NCBI GenBank assembly: GCA_017506865.1
Contig: JAFCMP010000547.1
Coordinates: 1,426,001-1,490,000 of the forward strand
DNA from: Tribonema minus
Lineage: Eukaryota; Sar; Xanthophyceae; Tribonematales; Tribonemataceae
Length of the DNA stretch: 64,000 bases
Direction: 5' to 3'
Shown: in pieces, positions 1 to 63,093 of the stretch
Position numbering within the stretch: the stretch's first letter is position 1
Layout of the letters: each line of letters begins with the position of its first letter
The notes under the pieces: generated by a model
What the model was told of the DNA's origin: nothing
Seen by the model: only the letters and a program-made list of their open reading frames with translations
Databases searched by the model: none
Program-made: the position numbers and the translations under genes

Positions 1-3000
1 GGTCCGCATCGAGGCCGTGCAGGATGTGGTGCTGGTTGGGGTCGTAGCCGGGCTGCGTGCGCTGCTGGCGCACGTACTCCATGATCTGCAGCAACGCTCA
101 GCACACATTTGCGTGTCAGAGCTCAACCGCAGTTGCTGATCGACATGCATCGAATTATATTGGCGCAATGGCGCACGTACTCCATCCGATCTCTGCAGCA
201 GCGTTCAGCACATGTTTGCGTGTCAGCGCTCAGCCCGATACAGTTCCTGAGACCGATATGCATTGAAGCATGTACTGACGCAATGGCGCATGTACTCCAT
301 GATCTGCAGCAACGCTCAGCACAAACATTCCCGTGTCAGCGCTCAACCTGATGCAGTTACTGATCGACATGCATTGGAAGTATACAAATTGACATACTTC
401 GAAGTATGTACCGAAGTATGGCTTGCGTACTCTGCGGTCTGCCGCAGCGCTCAACACACATTTGCGTGTCGTCGTTCAGCCAAGCGCAGACTTGACACAC
501 ACACCCTACACGTGCGGGTCAGGTAGAATATTTGCACAACCACCACAACCACCGAGAGTGCAGTTGCTGCTGGCGGCACGTGCTCCATGATCTGCAGCAA
601 TGCTCAGCACCATTGCATGTCAGCGCTCGGCTCAATGCAGTAACTGCCACAAACTTCAACTTTTACATGAAGTATACATTGAAGAACATGGTGAAATATG
701 GTGCGCACGTACTCCCACGATCTGCAGCAGCACTCAGCACACATTTGCACGTCAGCGCTCAGCTCGATGCAGCTCCCAATCCATGTACACGACTCAGCTT
801 GGTGCTGAGTCGGGGCATGCCGTCTGCCTCATTCTTGACACGCCGATTGATCATGCCATCACTGCGGTTCGCCAAGCGTTCTGCACCGGCTACAACTGCT
901 TTCTTGTTGATGCACTCCCTCACTAGCGGCGAGTAAGCGCGCAAGCAATCGCACTGACAGTTGAAGTATGGCACTACTACTTCACCTTGTGCTCGCCCTC
1001 CCCCGGCTGGTTCGCGTCGCTCAGGATGACCTTGATGTTGCGCCACGCCTTGTTGGTGTTGATCCTGCGCGTGGCAGCGCTCAGCGAGCGGCGAATGGCG
1101 TCAGCGGCCACGCCGTGGTTTCATGGTGTTTGAATGGATTAAATCGCGTGAAGGATGTCATGAGCCCCATAATTGCATTGTTGAGTTCGTCTGTTGCCTG
1201 CCCTGCAGGGTCTTGCACAGCGAGCTGTGGAGCTCAGGGTTAGGGTTAAGGTTAGGGCGGCGCGCGCGGCCACAAAAGCAAAGCGGTGATATGCGCCGTG
1301 TAAGTTGTATTGCTCGGAGCAGCTGGGGCGAGTCACTTGTCGAAAAACATGATGTGCGGAGAGACCTGATGCGCATGCCTGATGGCGCATGCCCCCCCCC
1401 CCCTTATACGCGAACTTACTGCCCCGAGTGCGCCATCGCACCGAAGTCCACGCCCTGATGTCTCGCTCACGTGAAGGTTTGTCTAGCGAGCTCCTGTGCG
1501 TGCCCTTGCGCGTCGCGACAAACTTTACCCTAACCTAACCCTAACCCTAACCCCAACCCTAACCATTACTGACGCGCTGAACAGGGCCGCGAGCCGCGGC
1601 ATGGCGCGGGCGTGTTCTCCTTCAATGTTGAAGTATACCCGCTTTGCGCTGCTCCGTAGAGCGGATGAAATTCAGAGGCGAGCGCGCGCATGATACCAAT
1701 CCAAGCCAAGCCGCCTGATAACGTGCTGTCTACATCTCTTTGTTGTGCAAAAACTTCCCAACACTAACCCAAAGTATACGAGCTGTATACTACCTGTGCT
1801 GTAAGCAGGAACCCCAACAAACCCATTTGTCAACACCTGTGCTGTACGTAGACGAGCAGGGACACGCTCAGGCGCTGCCTCGAGGCAATGTGTGATCACG
1901 CGCCGCTTATGTTGGTGTTTGTAATCCTTTCGTAAGCCGTAGTCTACCCTGAAAAAGCTTCTTTTAAAGTATACTGATTGTAAACACACCTGTGCTGTAT
2001 GTAGAAGCGCAGGTACACGCTGAGGCGCTGCATGAGGTCTGTGACCCGCATGACAGCGCGCTGTCCACATGTATGTCCTGTTATCCCTTGTAAGCCGCAG
2101 TCTACCTGAAGTATGTATACAAATTGTAGAACACACCTGTGCTGTATGTAGAAGCGCAGGTACACGCTGAGGCGCTGCATGAAGGCGGTGCCCGGCGTGA
2201 TGACGTTGCTGTCCCACGCGGGCCCGGAGACGGGCGGCACCGGCAAGCCCAGCCTATGAAAACATAGCAATTGCAGCAACGCTCAGTGTGATGAGCTCAT
2301 TAGCAGCAACTCCTGCTGTGGCGAATGACTGCGAGCCCAGCCTGTCGAAACACGGCATTGCAGCAATGCTCAGCAGGGTCAACCACGTGTAGCCCAGACT
2401 GTAGGAACACAGCGTTGCAGCAAGGCTCAGTGTGAGATGATCAGTAGCAGCAATTTCTGCTGTGGCAAATGATAAGCAGCGTTTTTGAACTGTGGCATCG
2501 CAGCCGCAGTTTCCGCTGTGCTCAATGACTGCAAGCCCAGCCTGTCGGAGCATGGCATCGCAGCAACGGTCAGTCACATCAGTCGGTAGCAGCAGTTTCT
2601 GCTGCGGCGGATGAGCAGCAGTTTCTACTGTGGTGAATCAGCGGCAGCTTCTACTGCGGCGAATCAGAGGCAGTTTCCGCTGTGTCGGATGACTGCGGGC
2701 CCAACCCGTAAAGCCGCGCAGCACGTGCAGCATTGTTCAGTTGCATCGGCGCGCTCGCAGCCAGCAGCTGCAGCAGATTCTGCTGTGCCGCGCCACTGCG
2801 AGCCCAACCTGCCAAGTCGTTCAGCGCACGCAGGACTGCTCGGCCCTGCAAGCTGAATTTCAAATTGGCACTTCGTGTGTTGTGTTAGCGATTTGCGCCG
2901 CCGTGCGCGCCGTTTCGCTCGCCGTTCCGCTGCGCGCGGCAGTGCTCAATGTGTGACACAGAGCAGCCCGACCTGTTGAGCCGCAATGCGTGTGCCGCAA

Positions 3001-5519
3001 TGTCATTGAACCCGCACGTCAGCAGCAGCGCTTGCGTCAGCGTGGGGCGTCTGACCAAGGCGCCAGATGCACCAAAGTCTGAAACGCGAGGGGTTCTCTG
3101 ATGAGCAGATACCTCAAAGAAGAGCTTACTTTGCGAGGGCGCGAACAGTGCCAGATCAACAAGGGAGGTGATGCAAGGGGGGTGATGACATCTACACCTT
3201 TCGAGGATTCGAGGGAGGTTATTCAACACCTACACCTTGCAGAGGTCGATGCTGCAATGCGCCGCCATGCGGCGCGGCGAGACCCATGAAGCTCAAGGAC
3301 GGTACGCTCCTCTTGGCATATTGCGGCTAACCATCCCTTGTCACCTAGAGCTCTACGATCTTTTGATTCGTTTTCATATGCTCCAGTTCACATGTATGTG
3401 CACGTGTACATCGTCCTGAGCTCGACAGCGTATTGTACTCCACACCGTGGTGAGTCCGCCCTGTTTTGTGACTGGCATGGAGCCGTCGGTGAAGTTGATG
3501 CAAACTTCAACTATGATTTCCAGCTTGAAACTTCAACAACATTGGTGACCAGGAAAGTGTGCACGAGATGCTGTTGGGCGTGCCCATTCAACAGTCTCGG
3601 CGACCAGCAACTGCGGCGGACCCAGATGAAATGCTCAGCGCGCGCTTCGCATGCCGCACCCAACGATGGCGAGAGGTCTGTTGACGACCTAACCGTAACC
3701 CCAGTTCCAAGCCAAACCCCACCCTAACCTCAACCCTACGACAGGCACCGCCAATGTAGCCCACGTAGAATATAACAACTGTGCAGCGCACACATGGCAT
3801 ACCAAATAATGACGAACTGCTGCTCTTGCATACGACAATCGTGCCCATCGTCAAACGGCTTGTTGCCTGCTTGGCACTCCCCGCCACAACAGTATGGTAT
3901 CAACAGTTTCTTTGGTTGACTCCAGCAGTTACTGAGCACTGGCTCAGTTAAAATACACATTACCTGGAGCCCCAGGTGCGTGCACCGGCTGTACTGCAGT
4001 TGGTGTACAGTTGAACTCCACACGAACTCGGTGGACGTGCAGGATCTGCAAGATCTGGAGGGCCACACAAACTTCAACTTTCCGACGCGCGGACCTACAT
4101 CCTCAACTGACTCAATAACTCGTGACTCACTCTATCATCTCCTTGCACGTCTCCTCCATGACCTTGCGGTGCTCCTGCGCCTCCTGCGCCGCAACACGAA
4201 CTTCAACTTGACCGAACATGGGACTTTGTGACAAAAGATTCATGCTGTTGGTAACGGTCGCTTGACCCTTCTTTCGCGGACACAGTATGCTCAACTGACT
4301 CAATGACTCGGGACTCACGATATCATCTCCTTGCGCGTCTCCTCCATGACCTCCCGGTGCTCCTGCGCCTCCTGCGCCGCGCGGAAGCGCCGGCTGCGCT
4401 GCTGGTTCATCTTTGCGCGCGGCGCCACGCCGTCCACCGCCAGGTACAGCACGCGCCGCGGCCGCACCGCCGACATGAGCCTGCGATCATCCATAAGAAT
4501 GAAGCACAGCGCGCACAATTGCTTGTATAAAAGTGGCACGAGTGCAAGCATAAGGCTACCGGCAGCGCGCAATATCAGAGGGAGTGGCGCGTAAACGACA
4601 GTGGTTGAGGCGCGCCCCCAAAAATATGAAGATGAGAATGTTGCCATCACAGTGGGTTGAAAGCATATAAACAAATACTATGGGTTGAAAGCATATAAAC
4701 AAAAACTTAATGTGTCCGCCAGATAGGTAAGGCTTGGGCAGGACATCGCGCCATGAGGCCGCTGCACGCATCAGCGTATGCTGGAAAATTCTATGCGCAA
4801 GGATGCGCGAGCGGTCGAGCGATCTGAGGGCACTGCTTAGCAGCGTAGGTGGGTATCGCAGCGACGGGTTGCACCTGGTCAGAGACTAGCGGAGCACTAC
4901 CGCAGGTGCCTTCGTTGGTGACAAAGTGGGTCAGAGCTTGCTGCATGCCTCGGAAAACATTTTGCTGTGAGCGGACATGGGCTCATATAACAGTATTCAG
5001 CGGTGCTGGCGCATTGCTCGAGCGCCGCATCGCAAGAAGGCACTTCTCTTTGTGTTGTCAAACTTGGGTAAAGCCTAGACCATGATAGCTTCTGGACAAC
5101 GGCAAAATAAACCACAAAAGGTGACGAGGGCTTATTATAATAATGTGGAACACCAACACATGTGACATCACTCACCTTACAAAAGCTCGCGAAAGTCATT
5201 AAGGACCTTTTTGCTACTTCAATTAGTACTGGTAAGCGCGTTTTTCCTCACCCACTCACCTGTCCACATACTTCATCACATTTACATACATCTCCTCCTC
5301 CGTCTTGGGCTGGGGGCCATCCTCCGGGTGAGCGCACGGGTGAATAATGCCATTCATGTCCACATAAAGATTGTCGAACTCCATGCCGTTAGGATTGGGC
5401 TCCGTAAGGTCCAGGGGCATGCGCACGCCGTTGACAACGGTGGGCCGCTTCTCCATCATATCCGTCACAATCTTGGGGTACTTTTCGCTCAGCCATCTGT
5501 AGAAAGCAGGAACTCCCAT
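1..5519 (-). CDS. XRN2: XRN2/RAT1-type nuclear 5'-3' exoribonuclease (N-terminal part, runs off the left edge)
   Basis: Exons by hand: 5519-5260, 4480-4319, 2253-2137, 1064-986 and 85 to the window edge. All junctions are GT-AG and phase-compatible, giving the first 234 residues. The start [18 protein letters not shown] is the invariant XRN N-terminus, so the ATG at 5519 is secure. Family motifs follow in order: [55 protein letters not shown], and the beginning of the DAD motif at the edge. These contain the acidic metal-binding residues of the nuclease core. Family knowledge: XRN2/RAT1 degrades 5'-monophosphate RNA in the nucleus for rRNA processing and Pol II torpedo termination. [15 protein letters not shown] favours the nuclear XRN2/RAT1 form over cytoplasmic XRN1. 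Introns carry many copies of their own splice junctions. Only the C-terminal two thirds is missing. Confidence 0.95.
86..740 (-). repeat. tandem copies of an XRN2 acceptor junction (last visible exon)
   Basis: The real acceptor is at 85/86 (minus strand: ctgcag then exon ATCATGGAGTACG). Diverged copies of the same block, exon head plus branch/acceptor region, lie near 166-200, 282-315, 415-455, 575-612 and 700-735 in the same orientation. Each is recognisable on the plus strand by cacgtactccatgatctgca or a decayed version followed by gctcagca. Spacing is about 115-160 bp. The copies do not extend the reading frame and look intronic. Confidence 0.8.
1515..1566. repeat. interstitial telomere-like block
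   Basis: A run of CCCTAA/CCCCAA-type units (ccctaaccctaaccctaacc) lies in an XRN2 intron. Similar blocks occur at about 3700-3740, 8135-8155, 16092-16126, 18530-18560, 53258-53288 and 60515-60640. They are mostly intronic or next to junction repeats. Confidence 0.9.
1836..2060 (-). repeat. copies of an XRN2 donor junction (exon 2253-2137)
   Basis: The end of the exon (plus-strand acctgtgctgtatgtagaag, ending in cgctgaggcgctgcatga) recurs at about 1987-2035 and, more diverged, at about 1833-1885, downstream of the true donor at 2137. The copies keep the donor and up to about 50 bp of exon. Copy spacing is about 150 bp. Confidence 0.8.
2254..3010 (-). repeat. tandem copies of an XRN2 acceptor junction (exon 2253-2137)
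   Basis: On the plus strand the string gcaagcccagcct, followed by a short spacer, tgcagcaa and gctcag, marks the true acceptor region at 2241-2285. It recurs in decayed form near 2330-2365, 2388-2425, 2528-2565, 2694-2740, 2797-2835 and 2965-3005. Each copy carries a few exon bases plus the polypyrimidine/AG region. Spacing is irregular at about 60-170 bp. Confidence 0.7.
3330..3405 (+). repeat. dispersed repeat family A, short fragment
   Basis: The stretch tgtcacctagagctctac, with an adjoining gattcgttttcat, also occurs on the minus strand at about 56590-56635. There it is joined to a second segment shared with 43050-43150. This is a non-coding dispersed repeat of unknown class lying in an XRN2 intron. 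Confidence 0.6.
4127..4205 (-). repeat. single copy of an XRN2 donor junction (exon 4480-4319)
   Basis: The last 70 or so bases of the exon at 4480-4319 (encoding [19 protein letters not shown]) are repeated here as [19 protein letters not shown], followed by the same donor-side sequence with a gactcgtgactca motif. The copy is about 190 bp downstream of the real donor on the minus strand and is treated as intronic. Confidence 0.85.
4653..4707. repeat. 28-bp direct tandem repeat
   Basis: tgggttgaaagcatataaac plus a short tail occurs at 4653 and again at 4681, a perfect or near-perfect two-copy tandem with a 28 bp period inside XRN2 intron 1. No coding role is visible. Confidence 0.85.
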
Positions 5520-6947: not shown

Positions 6948-7179
6948 CTGACGCTTATAGTACTGTGTCAGGCGCAGCACATTTCCTGGTGGTCATCTGG
7001 CCACGATCCGACCAGGATGCCACGGGCGACGGCGACATTGGCGCATTGACAATCACTCCTAAACGGCATCACCACGCGACTTCACCCCCCCCCCCCCCCC
7101 ACTACATCCTCATCCAGAGAAAGAGTGTCTGCAACGATGACTTCAACTGGCATAGCAAAGCATGTGCTCTTCACTACAC

Positions 7180-14123: not shown

Positions 14124-17100
14124 ATGGCGATGCCGCAGTGGCTCGGCGGCGGCCACGGCACCGGCGTCCTGGGCCGCGAGGACGGCCTGTCGGGCTCGAG
14201 CTTCCTGTTCGGGCTGGGTGGGGGGGGGGGCGGCGGGGGCGGCGTGCGCCAGAAGTCTGCCCCGGAGAAGCAGGCGGATGTGCTGGAGTACCTGAAGGAC
14301 ATGCCGGATAGGAGGCCTGTAAGTGCGGCGGATATCCTGGTGGCGACGGGCGTGGATCTGGAGGGCGCTGATGCGGAGGTGAGCGCGGCATTGGGAGCGG
14401 GTGGTTGGCTGAAGCGCAAGTGGTGTTAACAAGCAGGTTCAGGAAGGCGACAGAACTGCTTCAACACGTCGAGGTAGCTGTCGCTTTTGAATTGTTTTGT
14501 TCTCGGCCGCTGGACTAGAGCATGGACAGGGCTGATACCCACTCGCTCCCATGCACGGGATGACGTCTGACCAACATTTGAAGCAGCATTGCGGTACTTC
14601 TGGTCGTACATGAGCGGCGAGATGTACTGGCGGCGACGGGCGTGAATCTTGAGGGCGCTGATGCGGAGGTGAGCGGTTGGGGTTGGCGGTGTCGCAAGTG
14701 GGTTGATAAGCATGTTGAGGAAGCTGACAGAACTGCTTCAATACGTCGAAGTAGCTGTTGAAGGGCGCCGATGCGGAGGTGAGCGCGGAACTGCAAGTGG
14801 AGCTAATAAGCAGGTTAGGGAAGGCGACAGTACTGCTTCATGACTGTTCAGCCGACTTGCTGACGCGGAGGTGAGCGCGCGTGGCGTTAGGGGGGCTGGG
14901 GGGTGGCGGAATTGCAAGTGGGGTTGATAAGCATGTTCAGGCAGCTGACAGAACTGCTTCAATACGTTGAAGTAGCTGTTGGAGGGCGCCAACGCGGAGG
15001 CGAGCGCGTGGCGCGTCAGGGGGGCTGGGGGTTTTGCGGAACTGCGAGTGGAGTTAATAAGCATTTTCAAAAAGGCGGGAGTACTGCTTTATGACTGTTC
15101 AGCAGATCTGAACAGAGCTGCTTTGATACTTCCAAAGCCTCAGATTAAGGTCTATTTGGGATTAAACGTGTTGACAACTGTTGCGTTGAACTGTTTTGTA
15201 GTCGACCCCTAGAGTGGAGCATCGACAAAGCTGACGCCCACTCGCTCTTATTAACATAATCACGTCTGACAAACATTTGAAGAAGCTTTGCGGTACTTCT
15301 GGTGGAACTGTAGGGGCGAGAGGTGTGTTCATCATGGCAGCTACTAGCTACTGATACTGTAATGATCAAGTGCCGTGTTCAAGCTGCTCTTGCACTGCTC
15401 TCTCAAAGATTTTCTGTCGTTTTTTGGCTCCTGTCCTCAGGTGAAGGAGATGCTGAGCGCTAACCCCAAGGTGGATATCATGGAGGACGGTCGGTAAGTA
15501 CCATTTTTTGAAGTTTGTAGTTGAAGTGTGTGCATGTAAATTAAACAACGATATTTTTGTTAATATGTGCTTCCACTTTGTGCGGCCTTCACTTATCTGA
15601 AAGTCTGTACATGGAACTTCGTTAGAAGTATGTGCTGTGGCTTGGTTGCCGCTCTTGTTTACAAAGTTTTGTGTACGGAACTATGTTGTGTGCTGCCACT
15701 TGGTTGCAGCCTGTGCTACCTTACACATGTGTATGACGCAACTGTGGTATCCTGGCACCCCAGAAGGGGACGGCTACCCTGCCAAGTGTGCACAAGCTTT
15801 TTAGCTCAGTGGTAAAGCCAGGAGCACCACAAGCACCACACAACACACATGGTGCGGCATGGGGAGTGTACCTTCACCACGAGATGTACCTGCGCCACTA
15901 TATGTACATGGCAAACCCCATATCGCAGCTCTGTGCGCCACGTGTACCACGCGCCGCACTGGTGCCACGAGCCGAGTCTGACCTGTCTTCGCGAGTCGAG
16001 TCGAGGCCTGTCACTGCTGTCAGCTACTTGGGGCTACTTTCCTGTCTCAGCGCAGGAGGCATGTGCATGTGCCTGCCGCGGCGCCTGCTGCTTAGGGTTT
16101 AGGTTTAGGTTTAGGGTTAGGGTTAGTGCAGGGGGGCACTTACACTTGCCGGCGCGTGTCATTGTAGCACGACATTACTCTGATGTACATGCGCATAAGC
16201 ATCAAAACATACACATAATACCTATGCAGTGCATAGACAACAGTCCACACACAGACCATATTCAGTTCATGAACTATGGATGGTATAGGTCGGAGTTTAT
16301 CAGCATACCAACGCACAACGTCCTGTCCTGTGACGCCAGTGTTCGCCACAAGTACATGCAGTAATAACTGAAAGTTCCTTGCACTACATCATACATCTGA
16401 GGCAACTCAAGAACTGTTTAACTCATGCTGACGCTGGCCTCAGGTACATGTACCAGGCCAAGTACATTGCCAGCGGCCGCGCAGCATTGCTCAGCCTGAT
16501 TGAGCGCTGCCTCAGCGGTGTGAACCGCGCCGAGCTCGTGGACACGTACGAGGGCGCCGCGCGCGACATGGAGGACATGGTGAGTGACTGAGTAAGTGAG
16601 TGACTAAGTAGATGAGTAAATCAGAGCTGAGTATATGAGTAAATCAGAGTATGAGCTGGTGGGACACGTACGAGGGCGCTGCGCGCGACATGGAGGACGT
16701 GGTGAGTAAGTGAGTAAATGAGTGAGTCAGCGCTGAGTAACTGAGTAAATCAGAGAGCAGGTTTCGGTGCAACACAAAGGCCAGGGCGCCTCGCGTGACA
16801 TGGACGACATGTTGAGTGACGGAGTAAATGGGTATGTCAGAAGTGAGTAAATGAGTAAATCAGTGAGCAAGACTTGGTGCAACACAAAGGGCGGACAACG
16901 CGCTGTGCGAGTGAGTATGGCATCTGCGCTTGGCAAACCTGGTGCAATGCACAGGTTGCGACATGGTCAGTGATTGAGCGAATCAGAAGAAAGTTGTGTG
17001 CACATGAAGCAATTGTCTTTGAGAGCATGCATGTATGCTGCAGCGTGCCATACCCACTCTGCTAACCCTAAGTACCACGCTCCTCCGCGCAGATCCGCGG

Positions 17101-20100
17101 CGGCGAGGTGATCGCCATCAAGCACAAGGAGAGCATGCATGCATGCAGAGATTCACACTTGAATGCCCCTCAACAGTTACGTATGCATGCCGCAGCGTGC
17201 CGTACCCCCCTCCCCCCCCTCCCCGTGCGCAGATCCGCGGCGGCGAGGTGATCGCCAATCAAGCACACGATACGCACCGCCCATATCCAACCGTTCACAA
17301 CAACCCACCCACAAAAGCATGTACGCTACAGCGTGCTACGCGTAATCTACAACATGCCCCCCCTTCTCTCCCCCGCCCCCCGGCACAGATCCGCGGCGGC
17401 GAGGTGATCGCCATCAAGCACAAGGAGCACGGCACGGTGCTGCTGTACCCGCGCGGCGCGACGTTCCTCACGCGCCTCAGCGGCGCCGTGCGCATCGGCC
17501 CCGGCGAGCGCGTCGCGACGACGTCCGCGCCGCTCGCCGCCGAGCTGCGGCGCGGCGAGGCCGTGCGCATCGGCGACCGCTGGGCGCGCGTCAGCTGCGA
17601 GGTGCGTTCTTTGGGTCTGTACACCTTAGAGTACATGCCGCGTTGAGACGCAGGGCTAGGGCTAGGGTTAGTGTTAGGTTTAGCGGAGCTGCGTCGCGAC
17701 GACGTCTACGCCGCTCGCCGCCGAGCTGCGCCGCGGCGAGGCGGTGCGCATCGCCGATAGCTGGGCGCGCGTCAGCTGCGAGGTGCGTGCTGAGCGCTGC
17801 CGCCCCCGTACCAAAACCAAATAGTGACGTCAGGGTGAGAGTAAAGTTAGAAATTAGGTTCCAGTAGAGCTGCGCTGCGGCGAGGCGGTGCGCATCGCCG
17901 ACCGCTGGGCGCGCGTCAGCTGCGAGGTGCGTATGATGAATGGTGATGAGGGTGATGATGCTGGTGATGACGATCAGATGCCACGCTTTATTTGCACACG
18001 CCGTGTCAAGACACAGGGTCAGGCAAAGGGGTAGGGTCAGGGTAGGGAATACGGTTTAACGGGGGTGCGGCGCGGCGAGGCGGTGCGCATCGGCGACCGC
18101 TGAACGCGCGTCAGCTGCGAGATGCGTATCATGACGATGACGATGATGGTGATGCCACGCACATGCTGCATTTCGACACAGGGCAAGGGATGAGTCAGGA
18201 TCAGGTTAGGGCTAGGTTTAGGCCTGCGCATCGGCGATCGCTGGGCGCGATTCAGCTGTCAGGTGCGTGACAAGAGCGCTGCCGCTCTCATGCCGCATGA
18301 AGTTGCAATCGCAGATTCGCTATGGGTAGTACACACAACAAACACACCGGCGCGTGGTTGGGGATAGGATCAGAGTTAGGTCAGGGCTCAGATTTTGGTG
18401 AACCTGCGCTGCAATGCGGCTGTGCGCATCGGCGACCGCTGGGCGCGTGTCAGCTGCGCGGCGCATGGTGAGTACCCCCATTTGAGCTGCCACAGCCCGC
18501 AACAGCAGACGTTGTACACCTTGAAGGACATTAGGGTTAGGGTTAGGGTTAGGGTGAGGGTTATATGCCCCATATGCGCAGCTCTTATACCACCTCCTTC
18601 CGCAAGGGCCTCAGGTCAGCACCGCGCCACTCAACTGGTACCGTGCGCACGCCGCGGCTCTGTCAATTGTGTTGATTGCGATGATTTCGTCCAAAGTGGT
18701 GTCATTCTCATTGGTTCCTGCCCCCCCCCCCCCCCAAGAACAGCACTTCACTTGAATCCTGCTCATGAGTACAGCGGAGCAGGTCGTTCACCCCCCCCTC
18801 CCAATCCCCTCAGATCAGCACATGCTTGAAACCAACTCATGTACAGAGACACAGGCCGTTTACACCACCACTGAGAGCGCAAAGCTCACCACCGTGCCAG
18901 GAATGGACAACCAAGGGACCCAAGCAGACACAAGACTCGCGGCTAATGCATGTGTTGCTAGAAGAGTGATCATTGAGAACCCAGGAGGCAAACATGTACA
19001 GCCACGTCAGTGCTCAACAGAACCCAACCTCAACATGAGCTGAGTTGTGCGCTGTTCAACCACCATTGCCCTCATCCCCCCCCCCCCCCCCCCCCCAACC
19101 CCCCCCCCCCACCCCCACCCCACTCACCCCCCCCAGGTCAGCACGGCGCCGCTCGACAGGCAGCCCGCGCGCGCCGCCGTACCCGAGTCCGTCGCCACCG
19201 ACCGCGACCTCAGCGACCGCAACGTCTACGCGCAACCCTTCGGGCCCGAGGACCTGACGCTCCCGCTGCAGACCGCGCCGCTGCCGTACGCCGCGGCGGC
19301 GGCGGCGGGGCCCGGCGCGCCGAGCGGCGTGTACCAGGGTCCCGCCGTGCGGCACGGCTGCAGCCAGCGCGTGCGCGCGCTGTGGCACGAGACGCTGCAG
19401 CAGGTGCGTGCGGGCGCGCCGCTGCCGCCGCGCTTCTGACCCTACAACCTAGCCCTACTTTAACCCTAGGCGTCACTTTCGCATGTACCACCGGGCCTGC
19501 CGTGCGGCACGGCTGGAGCCAACGTGTGTGCGCGCTGTGGCACGAGACGCTGCAGCAGGTACGTGCGGGCGCGCCGCCGCCGCGCAGCGTCGTCGTCGCT
19601 GCGCAGTGATCGTCGCTGTGGCACGAGACGGTGCAGCAGGTGCGCCGCATGCGCCGCCACCGCGCAGCAGCATTGCCGTCGTCGCTGCTGCTGCGCAGTG
19701 ACCGTCGCTGTGAGTGTCTCTCACGTGCGTTCAGCAGGAGGCGCCGCTGCAGCATGTGCGGGGCACGTGGGTGTCCCGTGTGTAGGAGTCATCGCCGCCT
19801 TCGCCGCTGCCGCGTTCAGTGCTGTTTGCTGCTGTGCTCGGGTGTTGCAGTGGGATGCTGCAGGAGGCGCGCGTACGCCGCGGCTGCTCTCTGTACCGGT
19901 CAGTTGCCGCGCTTTCTCCAGACGCCCTGGGCATGTGCACATCGCCACTACCCTTGCACCAATCCTCAATCTCAACTGCTGTCCGCTACTGCAAATACCC
20001 CGGTTTCCGTCGTAAGTCTAACTCTCAGTGCTGCTGGTGCATTAGCCAGTGGCAGAGAATAGCTCATGGCGGCAGAGGCAGCGCTCGGCACCGAACGCAA

Positions 20101-34007: not shown

Positions 34008-34042
<35 letters not shown>

Positions 34043-38224: not shown

Positions 38225-38260
<36 letters not shown>

Positions 38261-41905: not shown

Positions 41906-41949
<44 letters not shown>

Positions 41950-44900: not shown

Positions 44901-47900
44901 GTAACTCCTCAAGTACTTCACAGTATGTACTACCTACTCCCCATGAGGCCCACACACTTGAAGTTCAGACTTCCTCGACCAGATAGCCGGTCGCGCAATG
45001 TACGTCAGCGCTGCTGACCGATGGCGCTGTGCTGCCGCTGAGGCGTGTGCCCACCTTGCTGAGCACTGCGCTGCAGCAACCTCAGGACAGTGGCGCTCCA
45101 ACAATGGCAGCGCTCATCAGCGGTGACAGTGCTCCGCAAGCAGACCAGCGCATGCGCCGCGTTTGGCGGCGCGCCATGGTCGCACCGACGCAGTCGAGCA
45201 GTGCCTCAGGCATCAGCGCTCAGCATGGCGCGTGTGCATTGAAAAAGCCCCCGTCTTCAGGGGAGTAGAGATTGATGCCGGTGCTGCATTTCCACTTCTT
45301 GCGGCCACTTCAAGCAAGAGTCGCCGCAGGGCCTCCAAAGCGCTTCAGGCGCGGACTTGCCTCATACATCGTTGGGGATAGTCCAGAGTACGCGGACACG
45401 TGGAGAAGGACGTGAGTCAACGCGCTAACAACACATGCATAGCGCTCTCGCCTAGGGTTAACTACGGTGACCCTAAATGTACGCGCAGACCTAGCCGCAG
45501 CACAACACCACCACACCACACACACGTACAGCACATGCACGCACACCTGGCGCGCCTTCTTCTGGGCGTTGGAAGCGCCGCCATCGCCGCTGCCGCCGCC
45601 GCTGCCGCCGCTGCCGCCCGCGCTGCGCTCGCGCTGTGCGCCGCCGCCGCGCGCTTGCTGCGACGATGCCTCCAGCTTCGCCGCCGCCGCCTGCCGCGGC
45701 AGCAGCGCGTACGGGCCAAAAATCAGTACCAAATTGAGGCAAACTCTGAATATTTAGTGCACAGAAAGGATATTTCTCAGGTACTCTGTACTCACTCTTG
45801 AGTCTGGGAACGGTGGCGTGGACATGCAGCAGCGCTCAGACAGAGGCGCGCGCGGCGCTGCTTGCCATCGCGACCTCCGCTTGAGACTTCAGGGTTTAGC
45901 TGAGCCCTGACCCCACCCCTACCCCTGGACTACTTCGTATCTCGGTTTGCGCGATGACGTTCCGCTGCTGTGCAAGAACTAACCCTAACCCTATTCCTAA
46001 GTGCCCCCGCATCAGAGGCGAAGCTGCGCAAACACGAGTGCTTACATCAAATTTTAAGTTGGACTTCGTCAGCACTCAACGCACGTTCAGGTGACGTGCC
46101 CCCGTAGGGGGACTCCATGCCCGCAGAGCGGAGAGTACGGCCGAAGCAATGTTTCAAACTGCATGCCAGTGCCGATCCAGTGGTTCGAAGCGCTTATGCA
46201 TACACGCTAGGCGCATATTGCACCACATAGTCCCCTACATTTGTACTTGTGAAGTATGAGTAAAGTTCAAGCGCAATGCTCAGCAACATGCCCCCCGTAC
46301 ACACGCTGCACGGAGGAGACACACCATGGTACGAAGCAGTACGCTTAGTACATCGCAACAGGCCTCTAGGAACGCATGGTCTAACACTTGTTGCAAGAAG
46401 CAAGCGTGCAGATCAGTGCTGGCGTGCAGGGCGTTTTGAACTCGGCGACCGCATAGCTCAGCGTTCAACTTCAAGCAGAAAAACGTCGCTCTCACCCGCA
46501 GGAGCGTCGCCAGCACAGTTGAAGTTCTCTCCTCCAGCGCGCGCCAGTGCAAGGTGAGACGCTCCACAGGTGCGGCCCACCATGCGTGCGCGCGCGCGTG
46601 CGCCGCACCCTGCACCCACCACTGCCTTAGCCACTCAAACTCGAGCTCCGACAGCAGCGCCTGTCGCAGTGAGAATGGGCTAAGTATATTAGCAAGTAGT
46701 GACTGGCGGCTTCACGATGAAACTTGATGAACAAGTTGAAGAAGCGCGCGTGCGCCGCGCCCTGCACCCACCACTGCCTCAGCCACTCAAACTCAAGCTC
46801 GGACAGGAGCGCCTGTCGCGGTCAGAATGGGCAAAGAAATTGAATGGCGGCTTCACAAACTTCATGACAAAGTTGAAGTAGGGTGACGCGCCCTGCGCCT
46901 ACACTGCCTCAGCCACTCAAACTCGAGATCGGGCAGCAGCGCCTGCGGCCATGACGGAGGGCTTGACCGTGATGGTGATCAACTTCAAAGCTAAATTGAA
47001 GTAGGATGTGTGCGCCGCCCCCCTGCACGCACAGCCACTCAAACTCGAGCTCGGGCAGCAGCGCGTGTCGCAATGAGAACGGGCGTCACGTGAAATGATT
47101 GGCTTGACCAGGAAACTTCATGAACAAGTTGAAGTAGGCCGCGCATGTGCCGCGCCCTGCACCCACCACTGCCTCAGCCACTCAAACTCAAACTCGGACA
47201 GCAGCGCCTGTCGCAGCGTGAATGGTTTGAATGCTCAATGGAGGCTTTACGATGAAAGTGTATGCAAAAGTTGAAGTAGAGCACGTGCGCCGCGCCCTGC
47301 ACATACCACTGTCAAACTTAAGCTCGGACAGCAGTGCCTGTCGAAATGAGAAGCGACTGTCGCAATGAGAATGGGCTTCACTTGAAGTGATCGGCTTGAC
47401 CAGAAAACTTCATGAACAAGTTGAAGTGGTCCGCGCATTGCCTCAGCCACTCTAGCTCGAGCTCGGACACCAGCGCCTGCGGCATTGACAAAGGGCTTGC
47501 CCGTAAACTCAACAATCAAGTTGAAGTAGGACGTGCGCCACACGCCCACGCCCTGCATCCAACACTGCCTCAGCCACTCAAAACTCGAGCTCAAACAGCA
47601 GCGCCTGTCGCAGTGAGAATGGGCTAAATGATGAATGAATGGCGACTTCACAATGGAACTTCATGCAAAGGTTGAAGTAGCGCGCCGCGCCCCGCACCCA
47701 CCACTGCCTCAGCCACTCGAACTCGAGCTCAGAGAGCAGTGCCTGCGGCAATGAGGGGGAATTGACTGTGATGCGCTTTTCACCAACATGCCATACTTCA
47801 TGAACGAGTTCAAGTAGGATGTGTGCGCCGCACTGCCCACCACCGCCTCCACTGCTCAAATTCCACAGCACCAATCGCAATGTGGCTGCGCTGCTGAGAT

Positions 47901-50900
47901 AATGAGTGCTTTCGGGTATGCGTACAATATGGCCGCTTTTTGGTATCAAGGATCCAACATTGACCGCTGTGCGCTGTGGAATAATGCCTTGAACTGTGAG
48001 ATGTTGTGCTTCATGACGAGGTTGAAGTACCAGACCCGACAGCTACAACTTGGTGAAGTTGAAGTTGATATGCCCAATGCCTACACGACCACCTCAGCCA
48101 CAGAAGCTTAAGTGTAGCTAGCTCAAGCAGCAGTGCCTGACTCGTTTGGATTAGGGCTAGGATGACGCGCTCAACTCTCAGGGCGAAGGCAGGACGAGTA
48201 ATCCTAACCCTAAACCTGAGCGGTGCAGCCGCACTCATATGCTCTCCATGTATGCTTCCGTGAAAATGCTTCTATGTATACACGCAGGCGGCGCAGGCTC
48301 ACGCGTATGCTCTCTCTCCCTCCAGTTATAAGACCTGCTCATGGAGTCAACAAGCTTCAAGCACATGAAGTTCACGAAGCGCGCGCACCTGCTGCGCCAG
48401 CCACTGCTTGAGCGTCCGCTTGTGCGCGCCTTGCTGCACACAACAGGGGCGGACACGGCAAGCAAGCACACAGCAGGAGGGGGGGGGGGAGGGGGAGGGG
48501 GGTCAAAGAAGCCAGATGCTGGTATCCGTCTGCCGCCAACTTGCCCTAATCTGGCTGCGCCCGTGCGCGTTCTAGGGGTAGGGGTAGGACTAGGTTTACG
48601 AGGTGATTACGGGAGGGCACCAAGGCGCAGTGCAACACTCGCGCATTCACGTGTCTCCAAAATGGCTGATGAGAGTACATGGCCGCAGCAGCAGCATTAC
48701 TACGTGCAGCAGCAGCGGCGGCGTACACAAGAGGCGGATGAGCTGGAGCCGCAAGTGCGAATACAGCGGGTGACGTGCCTCACTGTCGTCTCAACGCAAG
48801 GTCAGCGTTGCACATTTGGCAGCGACACGCGACACGCGAGGAGCGCTGGTGTGCCTGCGGCCGCGGCAGCAGCAGCAGCCGCCGCCACAGCAGCAGGAAA
48901 ACAGCGCACTCCCGCAGCGTTCAAGAGCGTCAGTGCATGTCGTAGCGACGCGCATGTAGTGCAAGTGCGGCCGCGGCAGCGGCGTCAGCAGTAGCCGCCG
49001 CCGCCGCCAGCACAGCAGCGGCAGCAAGGGGCTTTTAGCCCACTAAAGGCACTGCGGCAGCGCTCAGGAACGGCAGCAGCGCTGGCCTGCCCAGCAATGG
49101 CAAAAACGCTCATCCAATGCGAGTCACAAGCGTGGCAGCGGCAGCAGCACTCAAATTCTCCCAGAAAGCACTGAGAAGCGCTTGCCCGTGCGAGACCGCA
49201 GCAAGCGCAGCGCGCGCACGCGCCGGTAGTGGCAGCGCTCAGCTACTGAGTGGCAGCAGCAGCAGCGCTGACGCGCGGTGGCGCACGGCAATGTTCGACC
49301 GCATGGCAGCAGCAGCAGCAGCCGCCGCCGCCGCAGCCGCCGCAGCAGCAGCAAGAGCAGCGTGCGCTGCGCCAGTGCTCATCTGACCGGCAACGCCAGC
49401 GGCGCTCACCCTAGTGACAGCAGCGGCAGCAGCTTTCAGAGATGTGACAGCGACAGCATGCGACGGCGCATAGCAGCGCTCGACCGTGATGGCAGCAGCG
49501 GCAGCAGCGCTCACCTGGATGATGGCGGCGCAGCGCTCCTCGAGGTGCGCCAGCGTGTGCCCCTCGCGCTTGGCGACGCGGTACGTGCTGGCGTAGCGCG
49601 TCGACTCTCCCGCGAGCACCGCGTGCTGCGGCGGAACAACCGGTGAGAGAGTTCAAGAGTACACTTGGGAAAATGCTTGGCGGCGCGGTACATGCTGGCA
49701 ACTGCGGCATATCAGCCAACGAGAAAAGGAGGTGTGCACTTGAAGTAGCGCTTAAAGTAGCGCTTGGCGACGCGGTACGTGCTGGCGTAGTGCGTCCACT
49801 CGCCTGCGAGCACCGCGTGCTGCAGCGGATCAGTACAGGACAGAGTTGAGGATCAGCCAGTGAAAAGCGTTGATGTATGCGCTTTAAGTATGTGCTGGCG
49901 TAGCGTATCGACTCGCAGGCGAGCACTGCGTGCTGCAGCGGATCAGCAAATGAAGGAGCTGAAATGTACGCTTTAAGTAGCGCTTGGCGACGCGGTCCGT
50001 GCTGGCGTAGCGCGTCGACTCGCCCGCGAGCTCCGCATGCTGCGTGGCGGATCAGCCAATGCAAGAGATGGGAATCAGCCAATGAAAGAGTTGCAGTGTA
50101 CGCCTGAAGTATCTGTGCGTGGACTTGCCCGCGAGCACCGTGTGCCGCAGCAGATCAGCAGAGAAAGAGGTGAGGATCAGTCAACGAAAGAGTTGAAGTG
50201 TGCGCTTGAAGTATCTGCGCGTGGACTCGCCCGCAAGCACCGCGTGCTACAACAGATCAGCACAGGACAAAGTTCAAGTGTATGCTTGAAGTCTGCTGGT
50301 GTAGTGGGTGGACTCGCCCGCGAGCACCGCGTGCTGCAGCGGATCAGCCAAACACAGGGTTGAGGATCAGCCAATTAAATAGCTGAAGTACTGCCTGACA
50401 GCGCGGTATGTGCTGGCGTCGCGCATTGACTCTCCCGCGACCACCGCGCGCTAGCAAATAGAAGAGTTGAAGTGGGCGCTTGAAGTAAGGTTTCACATCC
50501 CACTTTTGCCGCGGAGGAGGGTCGTGATCGCAGGTCGCGCGAATCCGCAAGGAAGGACAGGGTTGAAGTTCGGTTTCACATCTGCGTCACGGTGGTAGAG
50601 TCTCACTTCGATTTGAGAATCAAGGTCCTCAAGCAACAAACCCCGAGCGGAATTAAAGCTCGCAACCGTTTTGGTACCAAGGTTCTCAAGCAGAGGCCAG
50701 TAACCGTTTTGGTATCGAAGTTCTCAGGCAGCAGACACCAAGTTGAGTGTTCTGCTCTCACACGTTTGGCGTGCCATTGCTCCGCAGGACACGTGGTACG
50801 AGAGAACGTCAGCAACTTCAGCAATTCGCAGGTTCGCAGGCGCTGCAGCAGACTGCGCGCCGAGCTTCACCTCCTGCTGAAGTCAACGCCACGCGGGAAA

Positions 50901-58087: not shown

Positions 58088-61000
58088 TTAACGCGTCAAG
58101 TTCGACGCGAAAGACACGCGCTCCTTCGTGTCCTGCGCGAGCGCCTGGCCGTAACCGGACACGCGTGCGCTGCTGAGGCCGCCGCCGCCCGGCCCGCCGC
58201 CGCCGCCGCCGCCTGCAGCGTCCCGCTGCGAGGGCTTGGCAAACTCGAGCTTGAGGATGAGGTGGTCGTATCCATAGCCCTGCGATGCACGTGACGGGCA
58301 GCGAAGCAGTCAGGCTCGAGAGTGAGTATGGGCGTGTTAGTATGGGCGTTGCGGTAACAAAGTGGCCATATGTAGCCAGTGTCGAGTGTGCATATGTAGC
58401 GCCGGCCGCGTCCCGCTGCGAGGGCTTGGCAAACTCGAACTTGAGGATAAGGTGGTCGTAGCCGTAGCCCTGCGTTGCGCATGATGCAGACAGGCTCGCG
58501 AGTGAGTATGGGCGCTGCGGTAAGGAAGGGGCCATGAAGCCAGCGTCCAGTGTGCATAGCTGCAGGTACTTGACCTGGTGTGCGGTGTTGTCAGGCTCGC
58601 GAGTGAGTACATGTAAGCATTGCAGTAATGTAGTGGCCATAAAGCCGGCGTCAAGTGTGCATGAATGCAATTACCCACGGCGGGCGGTCGGATGCCCAGG
58701 GTGCGGCGTTGTCGATTCAACGCATCTTGGAGACTGTGCGACACCAACATTGATGGCGCGCACACAGGGACTCTACCCTGGTCAGAGGTAGGGTTAGGGT
58801 TAGCTTTGACATCCGCATGTGCAGCTACATGGGAGTAAGGGCAAGGTCAGGGGGTACGCCACCAGCGCGATCAACGCACTTCAGAATAGACAAACCATGT
58901 CATGGGCGCACGGAGGGACTCTGTCTTGACCCTCTGCGCCCCTCTTGAGGTGAAGCCAAAGCGTGGCTGCACCTGTACACACGCATAGCCGGTATCTGCT
59001 TCCGACGTGAAGAGCATGACTGTGAACACCATACATGGGGAGGGACGGAGGTGCACTTCGTGGTGCGTCGCGTTTACACCCGTGGCAAGCGTATGCGCGT
59101 GCCCCGTTGTCACAGAGCACAAGGTCAACTGATACAGTACCTGTAGCCGCTCTTTCTCCAGTATGTCAATACTCGTGCGCATACTCTATGAGATTGTTGT
59201 TCTGGTCCACGCGCGCGCACCTGCAGCTTGTTCGTGGCGCGTTCCGCGTCCGCCTCAGACGTAAAGCTCACAAACGCAAAGCCGCACGACTGCATCGTGG
59301 TAATAAATACTCGTACACGCACTTGGTTGATTCCTTTTCGCCTGTTCGACATGGGCACTACACGCCATCTCCTCATGCGCACCTGCAGCTTGTGCATGGC
59401 GCGCTCCGCGTCCGCCTCTGACCCTAAACCTGACCCTACCCCTAACCTTACGCTGCGTGGCACCTGCAGATTGTTCGTGCTACACAAAAAAGTGTCACTG
59501 GACGCGAAAGACGGCGACGGCGTTTCGTCTCGTCGCGTGCGCGGGCGCACCTGCAGCTTGTTCATGGCGCGTTCCGCGTCCGCCTCGGATGTGAAGCTCA
59601 CGAACGCGAACCCGCGCGACTGCATCGTCTCCGGGTCCTTGGCGAGGTACACCCTGTGAATACGTCCGAACGTGCCAAACAGCTCGCGCAGGTCGCCCTC
59701 CGTAGTGTCCTCCGATATGTTGGTGACGCGGATCTTCGTCCTGTCCTCCAGGGGCATGGGGGGCGCGTCGCCGCCGCCGGCGCCGCCCGCCGCCGCGGCC
59801 CACCGCGCGCCCGGGGGTATGTATTTGCCGCCCTCTGCGCCTATTTATGAGGGGAGACACGGGGATTGGGGAGGGGAGGCACGCGGGTGAGCCGACAAAG
59901 GGGCAGCAGCGCGCGAGGTACAGTTTATTTGTGTTGAGGGGTACGCATGTGAGGGCGCCGCCCGCCGCCGCGGCCCACCGCGCGCCCGGGGGTATGTATT
60001 TGCCGCCTTCCGCGCCTGGTCACGAGGGAAGTTGGGGAGGGAGGGCACGAGGGTAAGCCAATGCAGGAAAAGCAGCGCATGAGGCACGGTTCATCCGTGT
60101 TTGAGGGGTCTAAATGTGCCAGCTGCCGCGGCCCATCGCGCGCCGGGCGGTATGTACTTGCCGCCCTCTGCGCCTGGTGAGAAGCAAGGGGGGGGCGGGG
60201 GTTGGGGAGGGTAGGCACGTGGGTAGCGCGACACAGGGCCAGCAGCGTGTGAGGCGCGGTTCATCCGTGTGTGAGCGAAGCGCAGCAGGGCCATCGGTGT
60301 ACACACACGTCGCCGTCGCCACGAGCAACTCGGCGGAGGGGGTATGCATTTGCCGCCCTCTCCGCCTGAGTGACAAGGAAAGGACGAGGTCAGTCGATCG
60401 TACCCAGCAGGCCCGGCGCAAGGGGGAAGGCATGGAGTCGGATAATCGCAGCAATGGCGCACGTCTGGTCCGGCGCTGACGAGCTCCGTGCACGGTACCA
60501 GCAGCAACAGGTTAAGGGTTGGATTTAGGGTTAGCCTTTGCCGCCTCCAAGCCGGTTACGTCGAGAGTGTCCCCTAACCCTAACCCTACACCCTAACTCT
60601 AACACCAAACCTTTAACCCTAACACTAAACCCTTACCCTGGTACCACGGACTCAAGTACTTCGAAGTATACTGTATCGGAGCGGCAGTGGGCGGCGTGGG
60701 TTGGCGTGCGCGTGGCTGCAGTGGCCGCCTGCTGCGGCGCAGCGCACGACCAGGGGTGTAGGTGCAGAGCACGCGCGGCAATGCAACTACGCACGGCACT
60801 CCAACAGCTGTGACTGTCGCATGTGACGACACACAGGCGCCAGGGCGCGCCGCAGACACCATACCCATACTTACCGCCCAGGTGAAGCACAGGACCATGC
60901 AAAACCTTGAATGAAACAGATACACATGCAGTCGTGCAACAATGCGCAAGCACGCAGGCGCGCTGCAGCCGCCGTACCCATATACATACTTACCCCAGCC

Positions 61001-63093
61001 GCCACGTGCTGCGCGCTAGCGCAGTCCAAGTGACGTACAAGGACTCTTGTGACAAAGCACTGCACGAGTGCGATCGGGTCAAGCACTACAGCAGCCATAC
61101 ACTCGCGCAACAACGCACAAGCGCGAAGGCGCGCGCGCTGCGGCCGCCGTATGCACACTTACCACCCCCGCCGCGCAGCCCGCCACCTGGTTCGTCGTCC
61201 GTAGGCGCCGCCTCGCCGTCGCCGAGCATGCCCATCTGGCGCATGGCGTTGCGGCGGCGCACGCGCTCCATCGCCTCCTTAAGGCTGCAACAGGCAGTGG
61301 TGATGATCAGCAGGCGGTGATGATCAGCAGGCGGTGATGATCAGCAGGCGGTGATGATCAGCAGGCGGTGATGATCAGCAGGCAGTGATGGTCAGCAGGC
61401 GGTGATGATCAGCAGGTGTTGATGATCAGCGGGCAGTGAAGATGAGCGGCTCCATCGCCTTTTTGAGGATGCAATAGGCAGTGGTGATGATCAGCAGATA
61501 GGCGATGATGGTTGATGCCAGACGCGGCGCGCAAGCTCGCGCTTAGTGGTGCGCGACTCATCCGCATCAAAAAGGACGACGTGAATATATGTTGTTTGAG
61601 AACGCGACACGAAAATGTGCCCTTTGCGGCACTTACTGCGTGTCGTTCGATCGAGTGCCTGATCACAAAGGTACGGTGGCAAAGTGCAGAAAGCATCACG
61701 GCTGTGAAAACCATGGCAGCTACCCACATGAACGCATGCTGCAGCCCGCTCTTTAGCCTCTGACGCGTGCGCGGCCTCAGCGCTGACACTTGCACTTGCA
61801 CTCCACGAGTGTAAGTTCCATGGTTGAGGTTGAAGTTGAGGCCGCAATGACTCGGGCAACTCCAACAGCACACTGCATCCAAAGAAACTGCTGATGCAGT
61901 ACGCAACCAGTGTAGACAGTGGCACGACACTCCTTCAGCGTGAAACGTCCCAGTAATGCGATCTCCATCATCACGATCGCAAGGGTAAACTACAGTAGTC
62001 ACAGTTGGCATCAACGGCGGCGGCAGTGGCAGCAACTGCAGCTGGCTAGCGGTCGTGTGAGGGGGCTGGCGAAGGCGATGGTAGGGTTTGGGTTAGAATA
62101 AGATTACATCATGCCGGGCGGCAGGCGAGGGCGGCAGATGTCCTCGTAATCATTCAGTACGACCCGTCCTTCCACGGAAAACACGTAAAGCTTCCCTTTT
62201 GAGGGCAATTTCCAGCATTGCAACTGCAAGGGTAGGCTCATCACATTATGGCATCAACCGGGGGACAGCGCTCTCGTTTTGATTCCGCAAGGGTAAGCTC
62301 CTCACATATAGCAGCAACAGACGGACAGCGCTCAGGATTTGATTCCTCACGTGTTCGCGTGAGGACGGTCAGGTGACTCGCACTGAAATATGATAAGAGA
62401 GATCAGGTCGGCAGCTGGCAAAAATGCTGAGCGTTGACCTGTCGATGACGTTGGATGGCTGCTCGCCCGCCTGCGTGCTCGGAAAATGAATATACCGCGG
62501 CAAATAATGTTCCAAAGTGAAATCCATGATCGACACACCACGAAACAACATTTGCTGAGCCGTCTGTCTGCACTGGCTTAACCATTCTGCCAGGGTGAGC
62601 AGCTGGCAAAAACGCCGGCAAAAGCGCTGAGCGCTGACCTGTTGCTGACGTCGGATGGCTGCTCATCCGCCTCCTTACAAGTCAAATGATCACTGGATGT
62701 ACGTGGAGATAAGAATTCTACCAGAGGAAGCAGCTGTCGAAATAAGCAGCTGGCAAAAATGCTGACCGCTGACCTGTCGCTGATGTTGAACGGCTGCTCG
62801 TCCGCCTCCTAACATGAGAATGCAAACATGTTTACCTGAAGACTATGATGATGGCAGTGAGCAGCTGGAAGAAACGAACTGGTCAAAGTGTTGAGCGCTG
62901 ACCTGTCGCTGACGTTGGACGGCTGCTCATCCGCCTCCTTGCTCTCCCGCGGCGTCTCCATCATGACCTGCTCCTGCGACGTGAGCGTGTAGCTGTGGTT
63001 GTCGGACACCTCCGCCGCGGCGCCGAACACCTTCCACTTCTTCCGCTCCGCAACGGCGCGGCTTATTCGTTGCTGCTCCGCAAATACCTTGAC
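58088..63093 (-). CDS. EIF3G: eIF3 subunit G, RRM-containing translation initiation factor (5' end not found)
   Basis: Exons 63093-62903, 61284-61163, 59834-59551 and 58279-58088 join in phase (0/2/1/0). The N-terminal conserved helix is VFAEQQRISRAVAERKKWKV FG. A linker with LKEAMERVRRRNAMRQMGML and GGKYIPPGARW (compare GKYVPP of animals) follows. The RRM is IRVTNISEDTTEGDLRELFG, YLAKDPETMQSRGFAFVSFT (RNP1 RGFAFVSF), ADAERAMNKLQ joined to GYGYDHLILKLEFAKPS. A Gly tail and 20 extra residues end the protein. Family knowledge: eIF3g sits on the 40S subunit near the mRNA entry channel and supports scanning and reinitiation. The CCHC zinc knuckle that usually lies between the N-terminal helix and the KYxPP motif is not seen, and the surrounding exons join in phase without it. 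About 70-90 N-terminal residues are missing, probably to the right. Identity is secure. Confidence 0.93.
58380..58680 (-). repeat. copies of the EIF3G last-exon acceptor junction
   Basis: The head of exon 58279-58088 (GYGYDHLILKFEFAKPSQRD AAG) with its acceptor is repeated at about 58400-58480. Intron flanks (gctcgcgagtgagtatgggc, gccataaagccagcgtc) recur three times to 58670. The true acceptor is at 58279. Confidence 0.9.
59215..59480 (-). repeat. copies of the EIF3G RRM donor junction
   Basis: Downstream of the donor at 59551, the end of the RRM exon is copied at about 59380-59420 and, longer, at about 59219-59301 (SCGFAFVSFTSEADAERATN KLQ in frame). A fragment lies at about 59460. The RNP1 motif of the RRM is thus present twice in the DNA. 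Confidence 0.93.
59935..60380 (-). repeat. copies of the EIF3G RRM-exon acceptor junction
   Basis: Three upstream copies of the exon head (EGGKYIPPGARWAAA; plus-strand cccgggggtatgtatttgcc gcc) lie at about 59950-60030, 60110-60195 and 60335-60375. Each is preceded by the shared intron block (gttcatccgtgt-gaggg). The true acceptor is at 59834. The period is about 150-220 bp. Confidence 0.93.
61285..61475 (-). repeat. 17-bp minisatellite and acceptor copy in EIF3G intron
   Basis: About eight head-to-tail units of caggcggtgatgatcag (17 bp) fill 61289-61430 directly upstream of the exon at 61284. A decayed acceptor copy (ctccatcgcctttttgagga tgcaa) follows at about 61449. The unit contains TGATCA palindromes. 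Confidence 0.93.
62104..62223 (-). CDS. possible terminal exon of an unknown gene inside an EIF3G intron
   Basis: An acceptor (cttgcag) is followed by 39 codons and TAA: LQCWKLPSKGKLYVFSVEGR then VVLNDYEDICRPRLPPGMM. It has coding-like composition. It cannot be part of the RRM-bearing EIF3G mRNA because of the stop. It could be an alternative last exon of EIF3G (the phase after 62903 would not fit), a nested gene or chance. The family is not recognised. Confidence 0.3.
   Translation of the reverse strand: MQCWKLPSKGKLYVFSVEGRVVLNDYEDICRPRLPPGMM
62420..62830 (-). repeat. copies of an EIF3G donor junction
   Basis: The end of exon 63093-62903 (KEADEQPSNVSDR) and its donor (cag|gtcagcgctca) recur with junctions near 62787, 62640 and 62437. 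Spacing is about 115-200 bp. The shared intron block is gccagctgctcaccctggca. Confidence 0.92.

Follow-up and report, generated by a model that had tools for sequence, protein, structure and literature searches.

Introns of Tribonema minus carry diverged local copies of their own exon-intron boundaries, consistent with neutral growth by short tandem duplication

Introns of Tribonema minus carry diverged local copies of the exon-intron boundaries that adjoin them. Of 166 exon edges defined by homology, from 21 kinesin loci and three genes of the window (the whole stretch of 64,000 bases that was analysed), 36 had a copy in their own adjacent intron, compared to 11 positives among 10,112 tests of exon edges against introns of other genes; inverted copies were found for none of the 166. 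This agrees with the first-pass annotation of the window, in which such copies had been read directly in the sequence, and extends it to 21 loci on 20 contigs outside the genes of the window, as its claim of a widespread process implied. We consider it probable that the copies reflect neutral intron growth by tandem duplication, filtered by constraint on the exons and not specific to boundaries.

The window belongs to a 158-Mb assembly of 554 contigs in which spliceosomal introns are present. Exon-intron junctions were placed by protein-to-DNA spliced alignment in XRN2, FTO and EIF3G of the window and in the 21 kinesin loci, which were taken from a family search. The best-named matches of one kinesin came from the brown algae Discosporangium (68 % over 97 %) and Ectocarpus (78 % over 78 %), and the top match of XRN2 was the EukProt transcript protein P0122 (99 % over 88 %), followed by Ectocarpus fasciculatus (75 %). 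These two proteins point most probably to an ochrophyte stramenopile close to the brown algae. The first set consisted of 12 kinesin loci with 49 clean introns and of seven introns from XRN2, FTO and EIF3G, and the held-out set of nine further kinesin loci with 27 introns, which belong to the same gene family and include some poor gene models. Before counting, 16 of 65 kinesin introns were excluded from the first set, 12 of 39 introns from the held-out set and, as doubtful by judgement, 11 of 18 introns of the three window genes. An exon-edge copy was called at a fixed score cut-off of 22, and the copy catalogues omit introns shorter than 200 bp. As to the gene names given to the window earlier, XRN2, FTO and EIF3G are supported, whereas for the subtilase the exons come only from visual reading. 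One subtilase exon of 88 residues gave no match in a search, and no near-identical second copy of the subtilase stretch was among the matches listed. WDR4 and GTF2E2 gained no support from Pfam scans, in which ten long window ORFs had no match. Many of the modelled kinesin introns (L028 to L039) are of phase 0; donors of the GTGAG type and CAG acceptors are frequent among them.

In the 49 kinesin introns of the first set, 12 donor-side and 13 acceptor-side edges, distributed over 21 introns, outscored every cross-gene null. With the window introns added and at the cut-off of 22, a copy in the own intron was found for 25 of 112 edges, compared to 6 of 5,808 cross-gene tests and 0 of 112 inverted, and the same rule gave 11 of 54, 5 of 4,304 and 0 of 54 in the held-out set, where 9 of 27 introns were affected. 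Non-adjacent introns of the same gene, tested in the first set only, contained no exon-edge copy (0/288). The exon part of a copy had a median length of 54 nt and was adjoined in most cases by a junction that resembles a splice site, and by an intron flank that had diverged. Its end lay at most 3 nt from the junction in 46 of the 47 first-set copies and in 23 of 31 of the held-out set, where the other eight fell short of the modelled junction by a larger distance. The intron flanks could be aligned as well, with a mismatch of 0.20 versus 0.29 for unrelated sequence and 8-10 versus 16 gaps per 100. The local direct copies thus carry both exon edge and intron flank, as a duplication across the boundary would leave them, and splice-site-like sequence has been multiplied within introns as was claimed. 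Junctions with any copy (37 junctions) had one to six, and about nine were counted by eye in one FTO array. The spacing of the copies (median 166 bp, quartiles 125-193, n = 78) makes the earlier figure of 55-200 bp roughly right. As described before, the copies of a donor follow the true donor in the direction of transcription and those of an acceptor precede the true acceptor, an arrangement that is built in because introns were what was searched. The suggested decay with distance was weak: of 38 pairs compared within arrays, 24 had the higher similarity in the nearer copy and 11 in the farther, with 3 ties.

XRN2, FTO and EIF3G together contributed five junctions with copies from the seven introns tested, and arrays read by eye add further junctions. 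The features of the window are as follows.

66..772, minus strand: XRN2 intron 4, acceptor-side copy array, apparently shared partly with the retained intron of a relative (self-BLAST, tandem repeat search, tblastn of P0122)
1837..1900, minus strand: XRN2 intron 3, second donor copy, more diverged (copy catalogue)
1990..2066, minus strand: XRN2 intron 3, exon part of the first donor copy, with the GTGTGT donor kept (copy catalogue)
4133..4192, minus strand: XRN2 intron 2, copied 3' edge of the exon, then an intact copied donor GTGAGT; 57/60 exon bases identical
4319..4480, minus strand: XRN2 exon with the 3' edge and donor that are copied in intron 2 (spliced alignment, in agreement with P0122)
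16532..18559, no strand assigned: local tandem array in an unnamed gene (self-BLAST, tandem repeat search)
20741..21380, no strand assigned: local tandem array in an unnamed gene (self-BLAST, tandem repeat search)
25927..26263, plus strand: subtilase, three copies of the true acceptor 26263 on its upstream side, each with polypyrimidine tract, AG or CG and exon head (read, self-BLAST; exon by eye)
26540..27019, plus strand: subtilase, three copies of exon tail and GTATG donor downstream of the true donor 26479 (read; tandem repeat 26369-27023)
27208..27419, plus strand: subtilase, two acceptor copies upstream of their exon, which starts at 27509 (read, self-BLAST)
28811..28945, plus strand: subtilase, copy of exon tail and GTGAGCGT donor downstream of donor 28732 (read, self-BLAST)
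46592..47890, minus strand: FTO, about nine copies of acceptor and exon head upstream of the exon encoding QALLSELEFEWLRQWW (read, self-BLAST)
49760..50448, minus strand: FTO, six acceptor copies upstream of acceptor 49626, at 49760-49819, 49888-49932, 49980-50039, 50217-50246, 50294-50333 and 50393-50448 (spliced alignment, copy catalogue)
58419..58469, minus strand: EIF3G last modelled intron, acceptor copy, AG kept; true acceptor 58280 (spliced alignment, catalogue)
59221..59298, minus strand: EIF3G last modelled intron, donor copy, GTGCGC kept; exon part 70/78 identical
59383..59421, minus strand: EIF3G last modelled intron, second donor copy, GTGCGC kept (spliced alignment, catalogue)
59779..60383, minus strand: EIF3G region, tandem array of about four units, no reliable junction model (self-BLAST, read)
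62411..62944, minus strand: EIF3G region, four-unit array, no reliable junction model (self-BLAST, read)

By self-BLAST the XRN2 intron 2 duplication extends over 4088-4192 and 4275-4380, and in the subtilase the pair 28675-28818 and 28808-28945 is 83 % identical. The subtilase stretch 26369-27023 reads as exon tail followed by GTATG, four times over. The acceptor of the FTO array at 46592-47890 was assigned by eye, as the automatic model misplaces it, and the copies in XRN2 intron 4 have short exon parts that fall under the score cut-off of the catalogue.

Detectable local duplication covers 14,912 of 50,674 modelled intron bases (29 %), and first-order Markov versions of the first-set loci had no repeat cover in 108,602 bases. 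Self-BLAST of the window gave 94 direct-repeat pairs less than 3 kb apart. At a fixed search space, direct local repeats cover 32.7 % of the window, unevenly (0 to 60 % per 4 kb); inverted local repeats are few, yet present, with 3,551 of 64,000 bases. The repeat-covered fraction rose with intron length in the first set (Spearman 0.53, n = 56), from 6-11 % below 600 bp to 44 % at 1400 bp and more, in line with the earlier view that the process lengthens introns. Over both sets a copy was found in 19 of 28 introns of at least 1 kb and in 2 of 21 shorter than 600 bp. The statement that most long introns contain copies is true of the first set, with 1 of 14 introns below 600 bp, 5 of 24 at 600-1000 bp and 15 of 18 above. 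In the held-out set the effect above 1 kb was weaker, the same classes giving 1 of 7, 4 of 10 and 4 of 10. Repeat cover was 0 to 3.7 % in ten virus-like, ORF-dense loci, compared to the 32.7 % of the window, and among four shorter kinase loci it was 0 in three and 34.3 % in L003, so the duplications are uneven over the genome.

Several sampled stretches (L017 to L027) are multi-copy and 91-99 % alike, and have almost no tandem-duplication cover. L018, L019 and L023 are dense in long ORFs; among eight ORFs scanned from stretches of this type there were one protein kinase and one PCNA, and six had no Pfam match. These stretches may represent an integrated large DNA virus or a large element. A comparison of haplotypes for polymorphic copies was attempted on C90/C179 and C144/C223/C278 (91-99 % alike), which are partly virus-like and ORF-dense and are uninformative on junction copies because they are not multi-intron host genes. 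Additionally, two large contigs (L040, L041) each contain a fragmentary RuBisCO large subunit match with an in-frame stop.

A scan for young duplications, with four overlapping or near-identical loci excluded, gave 28 that were 86-100 % identical, some of them in virus-like or homologous loci. The aligned length differed from the period by at most 5 in 16 of the 28, which indicates little homology at the junction and fits end joining, and deviated by 11-15 in five. An overlap of at least 25 in the other seven reflects either more than two copies or real homology. Tandem duplication by break repair (CST-Pol alpha or paired nicks) leaves little or no microhomology at the junction. Seven young duplications fell in modelled kinesin loci, five inside introns and two across a donor. 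The donor-spanning kinesin duplication at L037:3278 is 100 % identical over 42 bases, and that at L028:60 is 95 % identical and lies just outside the modelled part.

The first-pass annotation had placed the process at the boundaries themselves, and breaks at R-loops or stalled splicing complexes would be examples of how they could be targeted. Across 42 introns of at least 600 bp, repeat cover was 0.348 in the first 40 intron bases and 0.379 in the last 40, compared to 0.268 in mid-intron, but zero lies within the bootstrap interval of either difference, and an action at boundaries did not find significant support. In the flanking 40 exon bases the cover was 0.320 and 0.345, and it fell further into the exons. 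Two of the seven young duplications across a donor would favour targeting, whereas the other five lie wholly within introns. In 8 of 78 copies, versus 3.2 expected (simulated P 0.013), the heptamer ACTTCAA stood close to the exon-side breakpoint, but the excess is weak and these copies are not independent. The comparison of exon edges with exon interiors, proposed earlier as a check, gave no copy for any of 17 exon middles and cannot separate targeting from purging, since duplications in exon interiors are expected to be purged. Moreover, copies at junctions should be the easier ones to detect, since an exon copy has just one partner that can diverge freely. We therefore regard targeting of boundaries as improbable, with a modest boundary excess possible. 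A uniform process filtered by exon constraint suffices to explain the cover profile and is the simplest reading.

Under such a uniform process the copies should be dead relics, and a second possibility is that they serve, under selection, as alternative or mutually exclusive ends of exons. Exon parts are better kept than intron parts, and the splice dinucleotides were intact in 41 of 47 copies of the first set. However, the neutral expectation for intact dinucleotides is about 0.8 (decay of 10 % per site), which is near the observed value, and only 18 of 31 were intact in the held-out set. The exon parts had 27 gaps in 2,529 columns, fewer than half the rate of the intron flanks would predict, which speaks against the neutral reading, although this shortage is partly a matter of ascertainment because copies were found by their exon part. 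In a sample of 78 copies at 37 junctions, which are not independent, mismatches between copy and true exon at codon positions 1, 2 and 3 were 10.4, 9.8 and 18.8 % (148/1423, 139/1421 and 265/1409), a ratio of position 3 to positions 1-2 of 1.87 (bootstrap 1.46-2.42). Positions 1 and 2 thus change alike, at about half the rate of position 3, which matches the 20 % mismatch of the intron flanks, the pattern expected of an unconstrained copy beside a true exon in which mainly third positions change. Compared with each other, copies differed by 14.8, 15.8 and 23.1 %. Furthermore, 51 of 54 gaps in copies were not multiples of three and would break the frame. The offset of copies modulo 3 (remainders 0, 1 and 2) was 12, 2 and 7 for donors and 10, 8 and 8 for acceptors, counts that again come from copies that are not independent. 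We found no sign of protein-coding constraint in the codon positions or the gaps, and because the pattern fits one neutral and one constrained partner and the gaps break the frame, the copies look dead, and a function as alternative exons is very unlikely.

In one case a relic may preserve a former state of the exon. At XRN2 residue 141 P0122 has E, and the present window exon gives S; the intronic donor copy, with GA at its end, would together with the G of the next exon encode the E of the relative. At the level of sequence this suggests that relic copies may keep former exon sequence.

Mobile elements or introners as carriers of the repeats are highly improbable. Telomere-like and ACTTCAA motifs do recur in introns, but the exon-edge copies match the adjoining exon and are not dispersed over many genes, as the own-intron and cross-gene counts given above demonstrate, and none was inverted, so that the earlier distinction from introners stands. 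ACTTCAA, on either strand, occurs 74 times in the window versus 5.2 expected (e.g. 46873-47678 and 28545-28557), and in the modelled genes 1.41 times per kb of intron versus 0.15 of exon. The interstitial telomere-like repeat CCCTAACCCTA was found 17 times in the window versus 0 expected, and TTAGGG/CCCTAA 1.60 times per kb of intron versus 0.08 of exon, in 38 of 83 introns. At duplication breakpoints the telomere-like motif was present in 5 of 78 copies versus 2.6 expected (P 0.11), a weak excess. Interstitial telomere-like repeats would fit break repair.

1539, 16112, 18532, 27886, 28963, 43776, 45983, 51528, 52679, 53266, 53924, 58789 and 60572: sites of the telomere-like repeat in the window

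An assembly artefact has next to no probability: misassembled repeats can mimic tandem copies, and the near-identical pair at L037:3278 is a possible case, but most copies are several to more than 20 % off the true edge with a codon-position pattern, and the array of XRN2 intron 4 is seemingly present in the independent transcript of a relative. In this transcript protein, P0122 of a close relative, XRN2 exons 1-4 are joined in agreement with the outermost junctions 1-3, and the sequence then runs on into intron 4, which is retained. Its translated intron gave overlapping matches to intron 4 of the window, one at about 985-897 and then across gaps to 718. In an alternative match the later part is placed at 728-522, and by this placing about 170 nt, or about one unit, would be present in the window and absent in the relative. 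The protein-level matches tentatively suggest that the array probably predates the split from the relative and that the number of units may differ between the two species, with perhaps one fewer in the relative.

To account for the copies as products of neutral duplication we propose the following sequence of events. Short direct tandem duplications, mostly spaced at 85-230 bp, would build up wherever the DNA is free to change. They would arise when the ends of staggered breaks or paired nicks are filled in and joined, not by slippage driven by homology; in view of the young duplications we find this fill-in origin plausible. Events within exons would presumably be purged, and those that straddle a junction would survive and leave the mRNA unchanged if the outermost splice site, on the intact exon, stays in use. 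The inner copy would then decay neutrally into a relic of exon edge, splice site and intron flank, and repeated events, including the re-duplication of copies, would lengthen the intron. Splicing would have to be sufficiently exon-defined to ignore the decoys. We infer that the outermost splice sites are used in this species, as suggested by the transcript protein of the one relative.

A single duplication across an intron-exon boundary is known from an RdRp intron of potato, where, in the excerpted account, the duplicated segment likewise consists of the 3' side of the intron and the 5' side of the exon with acceptor signals (PMC4974935). That case concerns one gene and one event, which gave a new intron with a cryptic donor, whereas here many genes are affected and the copies lie inside existing introns, up to several per junction. 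The tandem genomic duplication model of intron gain (Rogers; survey by Gao and Lynch; as cited in parts of PMC4974935 and PMC3443670) shares with our observations an internal duplication that is silenced by splicing, but duplicates an exonic AGGT segment to form a new intron, whereas here existing junctions are duplicated together with their intron flank. Fill-in by CST-Pol alpha-primase at breaks gives small tandem duplications in human and mouse cells (PMC8355091, in excerpt), which resemble those described here as short direct duplications joined end to end; they are given as shorter than 100 bp and were shown in those cells. The introner elements of Amoebophrya are likewise repeated sequences within introns of many genes, but form dispersed families with inverted repeats according to the available part of the paper (PMC7789003), unlike the copies here, which belong to their own junction. 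Ectocarpus, of a probably related lineage, also has long introns, and the available excerpt names transposable elements and tandem repeats within introns with no mention of duplicated junctions (PMC12477816). In the open-licence literature, as far as excerpts cover it and with subscription papers largely outside this scope, we found no genome described whose introns generally grow by duplicated junctions. Within that scope, what appears new is the scale and the implied load of decoy splice sites.

Long introns occur in some fairly compact genomes, including those of brown algae, and here the intron material can be read, with 29 % of the modelled intron bases under detectable local duplication. 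The arrays are natural experiments in splice-site choice, with donor and acceptor edges copied about equally (12 and 13 in 49 introns). A rule by which the first transcribed acceptor is used should not tolerate the acceptor copies upstream. Decoy splice sites have been proposed as a burden on splicing, in a treatment that, in the part available, concerns decoys in general and not duplicated junctions (PMC4476162), and the arrays with decoy sites make this proposal directly testable. We put forward with considerable reservation, as possible but on balance doubtful, that intron growth in this lineage is driven mainly by a still active mutator producing short tandem duplications, possibly a form of break repair that leaves telomere-like repeats as well, and that the spliceosome tolerates near-perfect decoys in full exonic context. 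If there were such an active mutator, the introns would preserve their own exon edges as a fossil series.
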